The translations under genes were made by a program, and so were the position numbers. Shown piece after piece: positions 1,278 through 13,600 of a stretch of DNA of 64,000 nucleotides (within the stretch, counting starts at the first letter, position 1; each line of letters opens with the position of its first letter). This DNA comes from Paludibacteraceae bacterium (GTDB lineage: Bacteria; Bacteroidota; Bacteroidia; Bacteroidales; Paludibacteraceae): positions 1 to 64,000 of the forward strand of contig JAQUTW010000003.1 in NCBI GenBank assembly GCA_028694215.1, in the 5' to 3' direction. The notes under the pieces are model-generated. The model was not told where the DNA came from, did not search any database, and saw nothing but the letters and a program-made list of their open reading frames with translations.

Positions 1278-3434
1278 TTACTTCTTAATTAAAATGCGTT
1301 TCGTTTCTGAATTTGTATTGCCTGCTATTTTTACAACATAAACACCTTCCGACAAATCAGATAGTTCCAATTCAAAAGTTTCTTTGGCTGTAATATCTCC
1401 AATTGCCTTAGAATAAACTATTTGCCCATTTACATTATAAACAGTCAATTTTAAATTTGTATCTGACTGGGCAAAAAGAACGTTGCAATGACCTTCTGTA
1501 ACTGTAGGATATAAAAATATTTTTTCCGGATACAATTTGGTTTGTTCAACAGAAGTTTGAGTTATGATTTTCAGTAAGCCATTATAAGCATTAATTTTCC
1601 CATATCCCCACGAATTATTTGGCAATGCACTTCCTGTATAAGAATCAGAAGTAGATGTTGTAGCCAAAACTTCACGCACTCTTTCAGGTGTTAAAGTTTT
1701 ATCTGCCTGTAACCATGTAGCTAAAACACCGGTTACAAAAGGGCTGGACATTGATGTACCCTGCATATAGCCCCAATAATATTTCTGACCATTTTCGGTT
1801 GCTTCTGCTGCTTTGTCCATTGCAGATACGGCAGCATCGTTACTTGGCAAAGAAGAAATAAGAAGTGACCCCGGAGCTGTAATATCTGGTTTAATACGAT
1901 TGTCAACCGTAGGACCTTTGCTTGAAAATCCCGTTAAAGCACCAACAACCGGATAATATATACTTGGTTTGCGACTCTGATAAGCTCCGACAGAAATAAT
2001 CCGTTTACCTGTTCCTCCTAATTCACCTACAGAAGTTGTCGCATTACCGGCTGTCCAACTAGAAATACTGTTGTTGGTCAAATAAGAATAATTATCATCT
2101 GCCCACATATTAATTTCGCCTCCTGTTCCGGAAACAATAATTCCAACATAATTACCACTCGTTAAACTGTTTAAATTTACAGCTACCAATACATTACCTT
2201 TTTTATTTGTGGCATTCTTCTCACGAGAAACCAAAACATTTCCAGAAGCTCCTGTCGTAATAGAAAAAGAACTGGACTTTGAAACTGTTGCACGCAAATC
2301 ACCGGTTGACCAAACCTCTTTTTCTGTTGACTTATTGTAAATTACGCATCGTACTGTATAAGTTGAATCTGCCTCTCCCCAAACATCAACCATTCCGTAA
2401 CGTGTTGATGAATAATAAAATCCCATAAATGTTTTTATAGGTGAACTCGTTGTCAATGTTTGTTTAATATGTACTTTATCTTCGCCTTCATTTCCGGCAG
2501 AACCGACCAATAATTTTCCGGCTCCCTGCATCTCGTCACAAACACGGTCAAAAGTGGAAGTTCCGTCGTGAGGACCTACGTGCATACCCAAACTCATATT
2601 AACTACACAAGGTTTATTTACAGATTCTGCATAATTATATATATATTTTACACCATTTGAGATACTCACATTATCAGATGTATTGTCATTCAAATTATAG
2701 CTCACCAATACAATATCGGCATCAGAAGCTACTCCATAATAGTTGTTCCCTTTGTAAGCTCCTGCTGCTATTCCGGTTACATGCGTTCCGTGTCCAACAG
2801 CATCGGTTGTATCATCATACTTAGCTGCCAATATTTCCTCTTTTGTTGTGTATTCCTTTCCTCCTGAAAATCCCGAAGGTGCACCACCCGACAAATTTTG
2901 ATTCCACACACGTTTTACACGTAAATCGGATTTAGCTGTATCAAAGAAATTGATATGACCATATTCAAAACCATGGTCAACAACTCCTACCACCACACCC
3001 GTGCCAAGAAATGGCATTGTTAACGGTGAAGTTCCTGCCTGAACCTTATCCACTTCGGCAGAAGGACGAGCTTTGTCCATACGTTTATAAACAGGAAAGC
3101 CAATTTCTATACGTTTCACATCATTCAATGCCGCCACATCATTCAATTTATCAACGGGAACACGAACTGCAACAATATCTGTATATTCGGCATCGACCAA
3201 TACTCCCAGATTTTTCAAATTGGTTATATCTGCCTGCTCAGACAAATAAATAAAAGCTGACACATACTCCATATTATTAATGGATTTTATAGCATACATC
3301 TTTTTTAAAGGAATGTCAACTTTTGCTTTTTCAATTGATACAAAATTGTTGGTATATGGCGACATTTTTGGAGATTGTGCCATAGCAGTACAAAAGACTA
3401 ATACTGCGACAAAACTTAAAACAGTCTTTTTCAT
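1278..3434 (-). CDS. Secreted subtilisin-like (S8) serine protease with propeptide and T9SS C-terminal sorting domain
   Basis: Signal peptide; catalytic VVDHGFEYGH, GHGTHVTGIAAG and GTSMSSPFVTG; C-terminal NGQIVYSKAI...LSEGVYVVKIAGNTNSETKRILIKK. Confidence 0.93.
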   Translation of the reverse strand: MKKTVLSFVAVLVFCTAMAQSPKMSPYTNNFVSIEKAKVDIPLKKMYAIKSINNMEYVSAFIYLSEQADITNLKNLGVLVDAEYTDIVAVRVPVDKLNDVAALNDVKRIEIGFPVYKRMDKARPSAEVDKVQAGTSPLTMPFLGTGVVVGVVDHGFEYGHINFFDTAKSDLRVKRVWNQNLSGGAPSGFSGGKEYTTKEEILAAKYDDTTDAVGHGTHVTGIAAGAYKGNNYYGVASDADIVLVSYNLNDNTSDNVSISNGVKYIYNYAESVNKPCVVNMSLGMHVGPHDGTSTFDRVCDEMQGAGKLLVGSAGNEGEDKVHIKQTLTTSSPIKTFMGFYYSSTRYGMVDVWGEADSTYTVRCVIYNKSTEKEVWSTGDLRATVSKSSSFSITTGASGNVLVSREKNATNKKGNVLVAVNLNSLTSGNYVGIIVSGTGGEINMWADDNYSYLTNNSISSWTAGNATTSVGELGGTGKRIISVGAYQSRKPSIYYPVVGALTGFSSKGPTVDNRIKPDITAPGSLLISSLPSNDAAVSAMDKAAEATENGQKYYWGYMQGTSMSSPFVTGVLATWLQADKTLTPERVREVLATTSTSDSYTGSALPNNSWGYGKINAYNGLLKIITQTSVEQTKLYPEKIFLYPTVTEGHCNVLFAQSDTNLKLTVYNVNGQIVYSKAIGDITAKETFELELSDLSEGVYVVKIAGNTNSETKRILIKK

Positions 3435-3451
3435 GATTTTTGTAATTTTAA

Positions 3452-3919
3452 TTAATTATTTTTAGTTATAGGTTTACGAATAATAATACGCGTAGGTAAT
3501 TCTATATTATTAATGCCTTTCACTTGTAAAAGTTCCGGCAAGCGCACAATAGGACAAGTAAACGAAACGATATTCTTGGACAAAGATGTAATCTGTCCAC
3601 CCATCAAACCAATAGCATTTGCATCAAAATCAGAAGAGACCTCCAAATAACCGGTCACCACTACGGTTTTCTTTTTGTCGTCCAAACGTTTTAAACCATA
3701 TTGCGCAATAAGTTTTTCCGATGGTTCATACTTTGATAGTGATTTCAACGAAGCAGTTTCTTGCCCTAAGTCATACCACAACGACTCAAAGCCAACTGAA
3801 TAGGTTACATTTTCAGGCAGTTTCGTCTTAAATTGATTAGGAATGGATTTTGACGCAGCACAACTAATCAAGATAAGTATGCTCAAAAATCCGAATACAA
3901 ATTGATGTAAAGTTTTCAT
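3452..3919 (-). CDS. Small lipoprotein resembling a stand-alone S8 propeptide (fervidolysin/I9-like)
   Basis: Lipobox ILISCAAS; C-terminal ~70 aa align by eye with the propeptide of the adjacent S8 protease. Confidence 0.6.
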   Translation of the reverse strand: MKTLHQFVFGFLSILILISCAASKSIPNQFKTKLPENVTYSVGFESLWYDLGQETASLKSLSKYEPSEKLIAQYGLKRLDDKKKTVVVTGYLEVSSDFDANAIGLMGGQITSLSKNIVSFTCPIVRLPELLQVKGINNIELPTRIIIRKPITKNN

Positions 3920-5241
3920 TTAATAAATTTTATATGTAAAAAACGTTTCGTTGCCGCTGTTATTTTATAACGTTCATCTATACGGTACCCTACTACCCAA
4001 ACAATCTGATTTAATGAAGTTAATACCCATGTTTGTTCCTTTTCGAGTAAGGAAAGTTTATTATCAATAAGAAAGTCGCTAATTTTTTTCTGTTGCTTCA
4101 TGCCAAATGGCGTAAAACGATCGCCACTTTTCCACAAACGTAATATTAACGGAAAAGTTAATTTATCTTTATCTAAAAAAGCCTCATTATTTCCTGCTTT
4201 TATTGTATCAAACTGATTATAAGATAAATAATTAAACTTTAAATGAAATGGGGAAAAACACTCTTCCATTTCTTCCGTGATGATGAAATCTTCTGTATTC
4301 TCTTTTTCTATAGGTTCTATCAATAAAAGTTCTCTATCTTTGACAAGTCGATGTGTTTTCGACAAAAATTGTTTACCTGAGTTGCTCTTGACAGCATCAA
4401 CTATCTGCTCCGTTACTTCCGAATTAAAATTAAAGCGTGCAAGTAATTCATACAAAAGTGTTTGAGGCGCAGGTCGGCACATCAATTTTTCAATTGAAAT
4501 TTGAAAAATACCGTTTTCTTCTTTCACTATCTCCTGTTCCGATACGTAACAATAATTATTGTAAACTTCCTCTATATCATGCAAATACGACATTGTATGC
4601 AACATTGTATTGGTAAACGAAGGATTTATACTTTCCAACTGCGGTACAATTTTATGACGAATATAGTTTCGCAAAAATGCTGTGTCGGAATTTGTAGAAT
4701 CGTACACAAAACACAACTTGTTTTTACACGCATAATCCTCTATTTCAGAACGTTTGCACAAAAGCAACGGACGCACAATATTGTTTTGTTTCGCTTTCAT
4801 TCCCGATAGTCCGTGTATGCCGGTACCACGTATCAAATTAATAAAAAAAGTTTCCACAGCATCATCTGCATGATGAGCCACCACCACACAAGCAAAGCCA
4901 TTTCCATTTATTAAAGTTTGAAACCATTCGTATCGTAATTGTCTGGCAGCCATTTCTATAGACAAATGATGTTCCGATGCATAACGTTTAGTATCAAAAT
5001 CGATACTGAAAAATGGCAAGTTATAAGTAAAAGTAAACTGCTTCACAAACTTAAAATCGCGATCGGATTCATCGCCTCTTAAATGAAAATTGCAATGTGC
5101 CACCGAACAATCGTAGCCTAAACGCACCAAAAGATGCAATAGTACGATTGAATCGACACCGCCACTCACAGCAACCAAAAGTTTATCATCTTTGGTAAAC
5201 AGCCGTTCCTTTTCTATATATGCCGCTATTTTTTGATGCAT
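3916..5241 (-). CDS. tilS: tRNA(Ile)-lysidine synthase
   Basis: PP-loop VAVSGGVDSIVLLHLL, HCNFHLRGDESDRD and C-terminal TilS domain. Confidence 0.95.
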   Translation of the reverse strand: MHQKIAAYIEKERLFTKDDKLLVAVSGGVDSIVLLHLLVRLGYDCSVAHCNFHLRGDESDRDFKFVKQFTFTYNLPFFSIDFDTKRYASEHHLSIEMAARQLRYEWFQTLINGNGFACVVVAHHADDAVETFFINLIRGTGIHGLSGMKAKQNNIVRPLLLCKRSEIEDYACKNKLCFVYDSTNSDTAFLRNYIRHKIVPQLESINPSFTNTMLHTMSYLHDIEEVYNNYCYVSEQEIVKEENGIFQISIEKLMCRPAPQTLLYELLARFNFNSEVTEQIVDAVKSNSGKQFLSKTHRLVKDRELLLIEPIEKENTEDFIITEEMEECFSPFHLKFNYLSYNQFDTIKAGNNEAFLDKDKLTFPLILRLWKSGDRFTPFGMKQQKKISDFLIDNKLSLLEKEQTWVLTSLNQIVWVVGYRIDERYKITAATKRFLHIKFIK

Positions 5242-5552
5242 CAGGCTTCACCGCCGCCAAACATAGGCGTCGGAGGTATCATTGAGTTAGTATCCGTTTT
5301 TATCTTTCCGTATTGTTCCTCATATTTGGTTATATTGTCCTGAATGGCAAACATCAAACGTTTTGCGTGTTCCGGTGTCAAAATAATACGCGATTTTACA
5401 TGTGCTTTCGGAGTTCCCGGCATAATGCGTACAAAATCGACCACAAACTCCGATGAAGAATGTGATATAATAGCCAAATTGGAATAAATACCGTCTGCTA
5501 CTTCAGCCGACAGTTCAATGTTAAGTTGATTTTCTTTTGTTTCCATATTCAT
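5241..5552 (-). CDS. DUF3467 family protein
   Basis: Sequence pattern YSNLAIISHSSSEFVVDFVRIMPGTPKAHVKSRIILTPEHAKRL. Confidence 0.85.
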   Translation of the reverse strand: MNMETKENQLNIELSAEVADGIYSNLAIISHSSSEFVVDFVRIMPGTPKAHVKSRIILTPEHAKRLMFAIQDNITKYEEQYGKIKTDTNSMIPPTPMFGGGEA

Positions 5553-5585
5553 TAGACGTTAAATGCAAATGTCAGTAAAAAATAG

Positions 5586-5593
5586 TACTTTTG
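5586..5593 (+). promoter_or_regulatory. -7 element TACTTTTG upstream of cysK
   Basis: TAnnTTTG match 34 nt before the ATG. Confidence 0.5.
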
Positions 5594-5626
5594 CAAAACA
5601 AAACAGTTATTCTAAATATCAAATAT

Positions 5627-6574
5627 ATGGCAAAGATAGTAAAAAATTTAATGGAGTTGGTAGGAAATACACCTTTATTGGAATTATTTAATTTTCAGAA
5701 AGAAAACCGGCTAAAAGCTCACATTATTGGCAAACTGGAATATTTTAATCCGGCAGGCAGTATAAAAGACAGAGTTGGCGTAGCGATGATAGAAGCCGCC
5801 GAAAAAAACGGGGTTATTCATGAAGGATCAACAATTATAGAGCCAACAAGCGGCAACACAGGCATCGGTTTGGCAATGGCGGCAGCCATTAAACATTACC
5901 GACTCATTTTAACAATGCCGGACAGTATGAGCATTGAAAGGCGTTTGCTGCTGAAAGCTTTGGGAGCCGAAATTGTATTGACCGAAGGCGCAAAAGGCAT
6001 TGCCGGTTCTGTTGAAAAAGCCAACGAACTTCACCAACAAATTCCAAACAGTTTTATTCCACAACAATTTAACAATCCTGCCAATCCTGATATTCATTAT
6101 CATACTACGGCAAAAGAAATTTGGCGCGATACAGACGGAAAAATAGATGTTTTTGTATGTGGCGTAGGCAGTGCCGGAACCATTACAGGTTGTGGTCGTC
6201 GATTAAAGGAATTAAATCCTGCCATAGAAATTATAGCCGTAGAACCGGCATCGTCGCCTGTTTTATCGGGTGGGAAAGCCGCACCTCATCAAATTCAGGG
6301 CATAGGAGCAGGATTTATTCCCGGAAACTATGATGCCAATGTAATAGATAAAATTATCACAGTTGCCAACGAAGATGCCATTCGTACCAGCAGAGCCGTT
6401 TCTAAACTCGAAGGTCTGCTGTTGGGATTTTCCGGTGGTGCGGCTTTGTTTGCAGCCGAGCAATTAGCCAAAAAAGATACTTATTCCGGTAAAAATATTG
6501 TCGTTATATTTCCTGATTCCGGTGAACGTTATTTCTCAACAATTTTGTTTGACGAAGAAAATCGCCCCTTATAA
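5627..6574 (+). CDS. cysK: Cysteine synthase A
   Basis: LVGNTPLLEL, NPAGSIKDRVG, EPTSGNTGIGLA. ATG at 5627 preferred over the TTG at 5591. Confidence 0.95.
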   Translation: MAKIVKNLMELVGNTPLLELFNFQKENRLKAHIIGKLEYFNPAGSIKDRVGVAMIEAAEKNGVIHEGSTIIEPTSGNTGIGLAMAAAIKHYRLILTMPDSMSIERRLLLKALGAEIVLTEGAKGIAGSVEKANELHQQIPNSFIPQQFNNPANPDIHYHTTAKEIWRDTDGKIDVFVCGVGSAGTITGCGRRLKELNPAIEIIAVEPASSPVLSGGKAAPHQIQGIGAGFIPGNYDANVIDKIITVANEDAIRTSRAVSKLEGLLLGFSGGAALFAAEQLAKKDTYSGKNIVVIFPDSGERYFSTILFDEENRPL

Positions 6575-10956: not shown

Positions 10957-13206
10957 TCAATCGACTTCACCTTTCAGTTTAATTTCCAACAATTTATCAC
11001 CATTAACAGTTAACGTTAAAATAGCAGAATGCTCATCTACACTCTGTGGTAAATAAGTTACCGTAACTTGTGCACCCAATGTTGAGGCAGCGTCTTCTTT
11101 TAAAATCACGGCATCAGAGATAGTGAAATACGCTGCATTTTCACCGCTAACAGCAAGATTTATATCAGCTGTCAAATCGGAAGCTTTAATAGCAATTGTT
11201 TTCTTTTTTGCCACATTCAACACACAATCTCCAAAATCCAGAGTACTATTTTTTAACGACCGCGTTGCCAACAAATCGCCCACCATTACCGTTCCTGTTA
11301 TATCCAAATAAATATCTTCAGCTCTTGTTGATGCTATACCTATATTATCAACGTGTGAACCTTCGGTTGTCGGCACATAGCGAATGTCAACAGAAACAGG
11401 CTCTAATATTCCTTCTACAGGATACAAAACAATTGCATTACTCCATTCATCAGATGATGATTGCTTTATATCAAAATTACTGTCATCTAATAATAAAACA
11501 TCTACGCTGTCCAATAAATTTGATCCACTGATAGAAACCGTTTGAATTGCAGACGATTGACCTATTTTTGCAGCAAACGGCAGCAACGTTCCCACACTAT
11601 TCAATGTAGGAGGAGCACCTCCCATAAATTTAAAAGTAATAGTATTATTTGATAATTTTATATCTGTTATCGGCTTTTTTTGTGCCACACCGTTCCAACT
11701 CTTCATACTCGGATTTGTGGTGTCGGTAAATTCCGTTACGCCTCCGGAACCGGGGAATGGCGTATAAACCGAATTCTTTGTCAAACTGGTTGTCGGATAA
11801 GCCTTTATAAGCTCCACACATTGATGTGTAGAATCGGCATTTATTGTATTATCGTTCCAACGCATAACAGTAGAAGAACTTTTATCGACATGATAAACCA
11901 ACATGCCCGGATTTTTCAAATAAGTATCCCAACCCGTTCTTTGGCGGTTTTCAAGAATATAATATTCACCTGAGGTTTCTGTATTGATACGGTACGACTG
12001 CACTACTTCCAAATTGGAATTACCGTCCAACGGAGGCAATGCAACTATTGCAGGATTATTCAGTACCACAGGAGCTTCCCATTCTAACAGATAACGCTCT
12101 ACGCTGCTAAATTGAGGTGGTGTTTTAGACGAATTATTATAACAGCCTTGTGCCATCACACTCCATGTTGAAAGATGATATGCCAAACCTTCTGTATAAT
12201 AATTGGTATCGTACAAATCGGGCAAACCAACCACATGACCAAATTCATGAATAAAAGTTCCCATTCCATCTATATTGCCGGAAGAATTAAGTTCTGCATT
12301 ACAAGCATACGTATAAACCGATTTACCATTTCCTACATTCAATGACGTTTTTAATGCCCACGAATGTGGCCAAATAGTCGTCGCAGCACCTCCGGCAGCT
12401 TCACCTTTCCCTGCAAAAATTACATACACATTGTCCACATAACCATCACCGTCTGTATCGAACGGAGAAAAATCAACACCTGCATCTACAGCAGCCAAAC
12501 ATACTTCCGCCACAAACTCTCGCGGTCGAATGTCCGTTCCTGCAGCACCAGTATTAGCTCCATAATAGGCAACTTCGTTGACAACAGTATAAGGACCGGC
12601 TACCTCAAAATTCAAATTCAGTTTACCACGCGAACTTTGATAATAAAAATCATGTACAGACCCTGCGCTTCCATCATCACTGTACCCCTCTTTATTCAAC
12701 TTATCCAAAAAAGTTTGGCGAATGGTTCCCTCCGACGAGAATTTTGAATCAGGATATTGTGCCAACAAAACCAATGCTTTGCGTGTTCCTGTATTACGAA
12801 ACGCTTTTGCGTGATTCTCTTCCGATTTTATCTGAAAGGCTGGTTTGGTAACCATTTTGCGCTCTATTCCTGTTTTGGATGGACGTAATGTTTGGTCTAT
12901 TTTACTCAACATTTGCATAGTAGAAGCAGAACGTTTCTTCACATCACAAGCTTTTTCAGAAGTCAAATACAAGTGATTTGCCCCATCTTTATCTACAAAA
13001 TAATAGAAACCATCTTCTGCATAATCAATAAGATAACCATCTTCCGTTGTTGCATAATGATATGACTCATCACCATATTGCCGTATGGTTAATTCGGTTC
13101 CATTTGGCATTTTTATGACCATTGCGTCAGGGTTTGCCGGTACGGAATACAAGAAACTTACTGATATGCTCAACAAGATTAAAACACAAAATAGTTTATT
13201 CAACAT
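10957..13206 (-). CDS. Secreted M6-family metalloprotease with C-terminal Ig/HYDIN-like domains
   Basis: HEFGHVVGLPDLYD zinc motif; M6 N-terminal domain PNGTELTIRQYGDE...TTEDGYLI. ATG at 13206 gives a signal peptide. Confidence 0.88.
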   Translation of the reverse strand: MLNKLFCVLILLSISVSFLYSVPANPDAMVIKMPNGTELTIRQYGDESYHYATTEDGYLIDYAEDGFYYFVDKDGANHLYLTSEKACDVKKRSASTMQMLSKIDQTLRPSKTGIERKMVTKPAFQIKSEENHAKAFRNTGTRKALVLLAQYPDSKFSSEGTIRQTFLDKLNKEGYSDDGSAGSVHDFYYQSSRGKLNLNFEVAGPYTVVNEVAYYGANTGAAGTDIRPREFVAEVCLAAVDAGVDFSPFDTDGDGYVDNVYVIFAGKGEAAGGAATTIWPHSWALKTSLNVGNGKSVYTYACNAELNSSGNIDGMGTFIHEFGHVVGLPDLYDTNYYTEGLAYHLSTWSVMAQGCYNNSSKTPPQFSSVERYLLEWEAPVVLNNPAIVALPPLDGNSNLEVVQSYRINTETSGEYYILENRQRTGWDTYLKNPGMLVYHVDKSSSTVMRWNDNTINADSTHQCVELIKAYPTTSLTKNSVYTPFPGSGGVTEFTDTTNPSMKSWNGVAQKKPITDIKLSNNTITFKFMGGAPPTLNSVGTLLPFAAKIGQSSAIQTVSISGSNLLDSVDVLLLDDSNFDIKQSSSDEWSNAIVLYPVEGILEPVSVDIRYVPTTEGSHVDNIGIASTRAEDIYLDITGTVMVGDLLATRSLKNSTLDFGDCVLNVAKKKTIAIKASDLTADINLAVSGENAAYFTISDAVILKEDAASTLGAQVTVTYLPQSVDEHSAILTLTVNGDKLLEIKLKGEVD

Positions 13207-13216
13207 AATAAACAAA

Positions 13217-13600
13217 TCACTTCTCATAATCATTTCTGATAGTAAATTTTAATTTGGCATTATTGTTTTGACGTTCCAAGAAACGTTCTTCACGTTTTGT
13301 CCTATCTTCTTCATTTTTAGCTTTGTGCTTGCTCGGAAGAATTTCCCCTGAACAGTTTTCATGTGCGTAACAATAAAATCCTCTTTCATCTGCCAGAATC
13401 AGATAACCATCTGCCGTCATTCGCCAACTGTTATGTTCATCACCACATAAATAGATGCGCAATTTGTAACCATCAGGTTGCTCTATTTCCAACAAACCGG
13501 ATACCGCAGGCACACGATTAGGCAATTGTGCCATTACATACCCACCAATCGTTATCAGCAATCCGAATACGCAAGTCAATACTATTTTTTTACGCCACAT
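13217..13600 (-). CDS. Small secreted protein resembling a stand-alone M6-protease propeptide
   Basis: Signal peptide; PDGYKLRIYLCGDE...MTADGYLILADERGFYCYA aligns with the N-terminal domain of the next gene. Confidence 0.65.
   Translation of the reverse strand: MWRKKIVLTCVFGLLITIGGYVMAQLPNRVPAVSGLLEIEQPDGYKLRIYLCGDEHNSWRMTADGYLILADERGFYCYAHENCSGEILPSKHKAKNEEDRTKREERFLERQNNNAKLKFTIRNDYEK

Follow-up and report, generated by a model that had tools for sequence, protein, structure and literature searches.

A short gene that lies directly upstream of a gene for an M6-family metalloprotease, and whose product resembles the N-terminus of that same protease, raises the question of whether it is the remnant of a truncated protease gene or a maintained gene, and, if maintained, what a prodomain without a protease does. 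Such a gene, here called SA (stand-alone M6 prodomain gene), is found in the window, the whole stretch of 64,000 nucleotides analysed, from a Paludibacteraceae bacterium (contig JAQUTW010000003.1 of assembly GCA_028694215.1). A previous reading of this DNA from its letters alone (the sequence-only reading) had noticed the pair. Our analysis indicates that SA is an old, conserved gene, and we propose that its product is probably a prodomain supplied in trans, acting as a folding helper and/or inhibitor of M6 proteases.

Organization of the locus

The features of SA and its neighbour are as follows.

13217..13600, minus strand: SA, 127 aa (ATG-start ORF, homology, orthologues and conservation)
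13526..13600, minus strand: probable signal peptide of SA, about residues 1-25 (hydrophobic stretch and low-pLDDT predicted helix 6-18, by inspection)
13265..13510, minus strand: folded domain of SA, residues 31-112, six beta strands and a C-terminal helix (AlphaFold2 model)
13207..13216, minus strand: 10-nt gap from the SA stop to the likely M6 start (sequence; start picked by comparison with L038)
10957..13206, minus strand: M6-family metalloprotease, likely extent (PF05547 and TIGR03296 above curated cut-offs)
12904..13143, minus strand: the protease's own N-terminal prodomain, residues 31-110 (secondary structure of the model and profile match)
12790..12900, minus strand: low-confidence linker between prodomain and catalytic domain, residues 112-148 (pLDDT 33-44, blocks 121-140)
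11890..12789, minus strand: M6 catalytic domain (TIGR03296 over residues 156-448; best Foldseek match the InhA2 zymogen 4yu5/4yu6)
12217..12249, minus strand: zinc-binding motif HEFGHVVGLPD (sequence motif)
11002..11259, minus strand: choice-of-anchor-D-like C-terminal domain of the protease (NF012200 at 28.2 bits, below the curated cut-off of 45)

The gene order on the minus strand is rmuC-like (14972-13626), SA (13600-13217), M6 (13206-10957), a RelA/SpoT homologue (10935-8764) and cinA-like (8767-7532), the neighbour names having been assigned by inspection. The larger product belongs to the M6 family, with 77 bits against PF05547 (cut-off 22), 211 bits against TIGR03296 (cut-off 110.8) and an intact HEFGHVVGLPD motif of the HExxHxxGxxD/H type. 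Its ORF has a maximal extent of 10957-13233 (758 aa) from an in-frame ATG at 13233, an alternative start that would produce a 17-nt overlap with SA; the start is more likely ATG 13206, from which 21 residues precede VPANPD, much like the 19 that precede APAYPK in the orthologue from L038. The stop codon of SA occupies 13217-13219, and the spacing to ATG 13206, put at about 10 nt by the sequence-only reading, is exactly 10 nt. Both products begin with a hydrophobic signal-like segment by inspection; for SA this comprises a signal-like N-terminal helix and a hydrophobic stretch, so that the signal peptide claimed for the small protein is probable. Neither protein is among the type IX sorting-tail matches of the genome. 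A second M6 gene of this genome (G000:C34:30027-30926) lies in a 986-aa frame with its own full prodomain, and its product is a possible further target of SA.

SA is a homologue of the protease prodomain

The reported alignment of the 127-aa protein with the downstream protease is borne out by pairwise BLASTP, which gives 29% identity between SA and the N-terminus of the window protease (E = 1e-10). A profile built from 27 stand-alone proteins matches the N-terminal domain of that protease with a score of 74 bits (E about 1e-20), a similarity well outside what chance would produce. As the sequence-only reading claimed, the protease has kept a prodomain of its own; its catalytic motif is intact as well. 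The similarity to SA is confined to the folded portion of the prodomain, at about residues 31-110 of the protease, and does not extend into the linker at 112-148. SA is a homologue of a protease prodomain encoded without a protease domain, one of the features by which propeptide-like inhibitors are classed. Conservation runs in parallel in SA and in attached prodomains (Spearman 0.72; VPA, GDE, TxDG, R and others), and many positions have an identical consensus residue, to which a common fold alone would also contribute. The position of the N-terminal domain in these M6 enzymes, the flexible linker and general knowledge of metzincin zymogens suggest that it is a true prodomain.

Structure prediction, named earlier as a check, points the same way. 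The AlphaFold2 model of SA (62 sequences) has a confident domain at residues 41-115 (pLDDT 89-98 in the blocks over 41-120) consisting of six strands and a C-terminal helix. In the model of the protease these elements recur in the same order, with the same fold predicted, at residues 38-109 (E38-41 to H103-109), ahead of the linker 112-148 and the catalytic domain. SA is therefore predicted to be a complete folded prodomain without the linker. The SA model found no match in the PDB at E <= 0.001 with Foldseek (best TM-scores about 0.2), and a common fold was absent with known inhibitors that have solved structures (I9, I29, staphostatin and others). Its sequence found no relative among PDB sequences, and the window SA had no match in Pfam or NCBIfam, where none was consistent across the SA family either.

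SA is widespread and accompanies M6 genes

Among the matches listed, SA is present as a short ORF in 49 of 200 genomes of the family, from about 15 genera. The only other genome of the genus carries it at 63% identity with the same neighbours, and the close relative L038 has the rmuC-SA-M6-relA-cinA order of the window, with an SA of 132 aa. A scan of named genomes with a 12-row subset of the 27-row SA alignment yielded 70 Bacteroidota loci, mostly labelled as Paludibacteraceae or as uncultured Bacteroidales of rumen and gut. SA is found at 67 of these; at 65 of the 67 the next gene downstream, in the same orientation, is an M6 gene, usually after a gap of <60 nt or with a short overlap, which answers the earlier question of whether the small gene is conserved upstream of M6 genes. 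In the family sample all 49 genomes with SA possess at least one M6 gene, and SA occurs in 0 of 42 M6-free genomes (Fisher p = 3e-6, kinship ignored). Many gut Bacteroidales carry a small secreted free-standing copy of the M6 protease N-terminal domain, usually beside an M6 gene. Co-occurrence with a protease and maintenance of the gene are further properties that SA shares with propeptide-like inhibitors.

SA is a maintained gene of old origin

A prodomain-only ORF beside an M6 gene is what the decay of a truncated tandem M6 gene would leave behind, and tandem M6 genes are common in the relatives; elsewhere, at L140, an M6 gene is apparently broken. (L140 looks like a frame-broken M6 and was left out of the SA counts.) Against such a remnant, pairwise dN/dS of SA is mostly 0.02-0.2 (Nei-Gojobori on short genes, for which single pairs are noisy) and often below that of the neighbouring protease; the window SA and its relative differ by dN 0.34 and dS 2.2, the latter near saturation. 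This is strong purifying selection, and the start, signal and stop are intact. The sequence-only reading would have been undermined by relaxed selection, or by relatives with a full-length second M6 gene at this place; none of the relatives seen has a full second M6 in the place of SA, and L038 has its stand-alone 132-aa gene there.

In the prodomain tree, built on 87 columns and hence of limited resolution, 48 of 50 SA fall together in a single group (SH-aLRT 87) nested among the prodomains that are attached to proteases. The window SA pairs with the SA of L038 (100/99) and the prodomain of the window M6 with that of the L038 M6 (99/94), so the split between SA and the attached domain is much older than this genus; a recent duplication from the prodomain of the neighbouring protease is ruled out by the same pairing. 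With orthologues in about 15 genera forming one old clade, the long-term maintenance seen in tree and breadth and a dN/dS far below 1 refute the remnant explanation, to which we give hardly any credence. The shared arrangement in L038, the purifying selection and the separate grouping in the tree uphold the claim that SA is an extra, stand-alone prodomain copy.

Domain and enzyme alternate between one chain and two

The M6 enzymes encoded beside SA differ in their own prodomains. Those of the window, L038, L050 and L053 have a full one, and in most of the large rumen group it is shortened, the profile matching the first half only. Seven partners, six from one clade (L091, L097, L101-L104) and a separate one (L116), are prodomain-less: the signal peptide leads straight into the catalytic region, and each gene adjoins an SA gene. 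Prodomain loss was seen only in M6 genes beside SA. The second M6 genes of L102 and L103, which also appeared to be without a prodomain, were not counted, being probable start-codon artefacts because a signal peptide is absent. The half-matching prodomains of the large rumen group, for example in the proteases of L058 (10371-11978) and L049 (3936-5495), suggest erosion while SA was kept.

The opposite arrangement, with an SA-type domain and an M6 catalytic domain in one ORF, occurs in L098, L154 (= L130), L155 and L156. Fused L098, L154 and L155 occupy the same mlaE-mlaF-[..]-xth-lptB locus (mla/xth/lptB-like genes) as separate forms, and in the catalytic-domain tree they form one clade with the prodomain-less enzymes (100/99), L156 falling in another M6 clade. 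Given the well-supported branches, the fused state must have changed at least three times and the prodomain-less state likewise at least three times; the prodomain tree nests the fused domains within the SA clade. Some of the cases could be read either as a joining of SA to the enzyme or as a splitting of the two. Domain and enzyme are thus found now in a single chain, now in two, and by the classical logic of gene fusions this is evidence of joint action by SA and M6; this exchange between cis and trans is the strongest evidence for SA as a partner of M6.

SA without an adjacent M6 gene

SA also occurs with no M6 gene alongside (L041, L042, L108-L112, L122 and L123). In the mla locus of L041 and L042 it is followed directly by xth, the M6 gene is missing and the genomes hold 4 and 2 other M6 genes, respectively; these two loci have lost M6 yet kept SA. 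Elsewhere it lies next to relA (L110, L111) or to metG-like genes (L122, L123), and in the mla locus of L112 a C10-type peptidase (by inspection) follows SA where relatives have M6 (1-2685 and 2707-3099). Since SA genes exist without adjacent M6, one of them by a C10 peptidase, and SA is often more conserved than the protease, it may serve several enzymes or something else.

More distant copies were also observed. L131 (1501-1911) and L135 (1492-1899), from another family of the order, encode lipoprotein-like SA with no adjacent M6 within the stretch examined. A second, possibly independent SA group lies beside a topoisomerase-like gene (L144, L147 and L158, with SA at 2489-2860 in L158). L153 (G881:C1:3598000-3607000), from a distant genome of the phylum, encodes two near-identical secreted proteins (3091-3561 and 5186-5668) in which a prodomain-like domain precedes a C-terminal segment similar to a type IX secretion tail, apparently a stand-alone copy destined for the cell surface.

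These loci bear on the possibility that the domain was co-opted and now does something that has no connection with the adjacent protease, such as binding a surface or envelope ligand or another protease class, adjacency then reflecting shared ancestry of the locus. The several loci without adjacent M6, the lipoprotein-like (L131, L135), topoisomerase-adjacent (L144, L147) and sorting-tail-like (L153) copies, and the stronger conservation of SA than of the neighbouring protease would fit such a role; confinement of SA in the family sample to genomes with M6, the repeated fusions to M6 and the loss of prodomains only in M6 beside SA would not. We regard co-option as distinctly improbable.

Proposed function of SA

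We propose that SA encounters M6 enzymes during export or in the periplasm and docks where an attached prodomain would dock; once docked, it would help to fold the enzyme and/or hold it inactive. With a prodomain-less partner it would make up a zymogen of two chains, SA supplying the half that the enzyme lacks. Where the partner has a prodomain as well, which is the case in the window, SA would serve as an additional inhibitor or chaperone that can be used repeatedly once that prodomain has been cut, and it possibly acts on other M6 enzymes of the same cell too. The models suggest one restriction: SA may fall short of the active-site cleft because the linker leading from the prodomain into the catalytic domain is absent. 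A cysteine switch through the common YCYA motif was considered but not adopted, since no more than about 63% (weighted) of SA have the cysteine.

SA could instead be purely a folding or secretion chaperone, that is, an intermolecular foldase that does not inhibit anything in the mature cell. Prodomain-less partners need a substitute for the prodomain, and SA is without the segment after the domain, which might be the part that enters the cleft; both are consistent with a foldase. SA is kept, however, although the proteases of the window and several relatives have full prodomains of their own, and it persists after loss of the adjacent M6, which makes a chaperone-only role rather unlikely. We prefer the reading in which SA probably acts as a prodomain in trans, whether by helping the enzyme to fold, by inhibiting it or by both. 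More tentatively, and perhaps a little short of even chances, the family as a whole may represent a two-gene zymogen system of Bacteroidales, in which an M6 prodomain with a fold unseen in solved structures has turned into an independent, conserved, secreted regulator that replaces, supplements or re-fuses with the cis prodomain and serves several M6 enzymes per cell.

Comparison with known systems

By sequence and fold, the closest solved relative of the window protease is the InhA2 zymogen (immune inhibitor A, M6, PDB 4yu5/4yu6), to which Foldseek also relates the protease model. The SA model alone matches no InhA chain in the PDB, so the Bacteroidales prodomain is apparently unrelated to that of InhA or strongly diverged. 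A literature search for M6 propeptides acting in trans, or for stand-alone prodomain inhibitors of M6 or other metzincins, returned no report, subscription papers lying mostly outside the search; in that literature stand-alone prodomain inhibitors are documented for subtilisins. Beyond the single-locus view of the sequence-only reading, the present analysis adds the breadth of the family, prodomain-less partners and repeated fusions. One syntenic locus thus presents the prodomain in cis, in cis plus trans, in trans only and re-fused, a natural series of ready-made constructs for asking whether a metalloprotease needs its prodomain within its own chain. Moreover, a specific protein regulator of gut-bacterial M6 enzymes would be a useful tool, and a small ORF family nameless in Pfam and NCBIfam would gain a function.

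Protease/partner pairs exist in Bacteroidales: the Bacteroides C10 protease with its Bfi/Bti small inhibitor genes, like SpeB-Spi, has a small protein encoded beside a secreted protease, as SA is, and Bfi/Bti are exported and co-transcribed with the protease (PMC3462683). Those enzymes, however, are cysteine proteases, and Bfi/Bti are described as staphostatin-like (PMC3462683) and not as copies of a prodomain. The closest functional analogy to SA is provided by the subtilisin propeptide-like inhibitors: SUB1-ProM of Plasmodium is a stand-alone secreted prodomain homologue and a potent inhibitor of its protease, and others of the I9 type include Pleurotus POIA1, yeast IB2, Arabidopsis SPI-1 and TgMIC5 (PMC6993865). 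Like SA, SUB1-ProM is a stand-alone secreted prodomain homologue encoded beside proteases in a conserved locus. By sequence or fold SA is a member of neither the subtilisin propeptide-like nor the C10-inhibitor group. Whereas the I9-type proteins act on subtilisin-family serine proteases and have the subtilisin propeptide fold, the domain of SA, a putative inhibitor, is one of zinc metalloproteases; its predicted fold is a different one, and it occurs both as a separate protein and fused to the enzyme.
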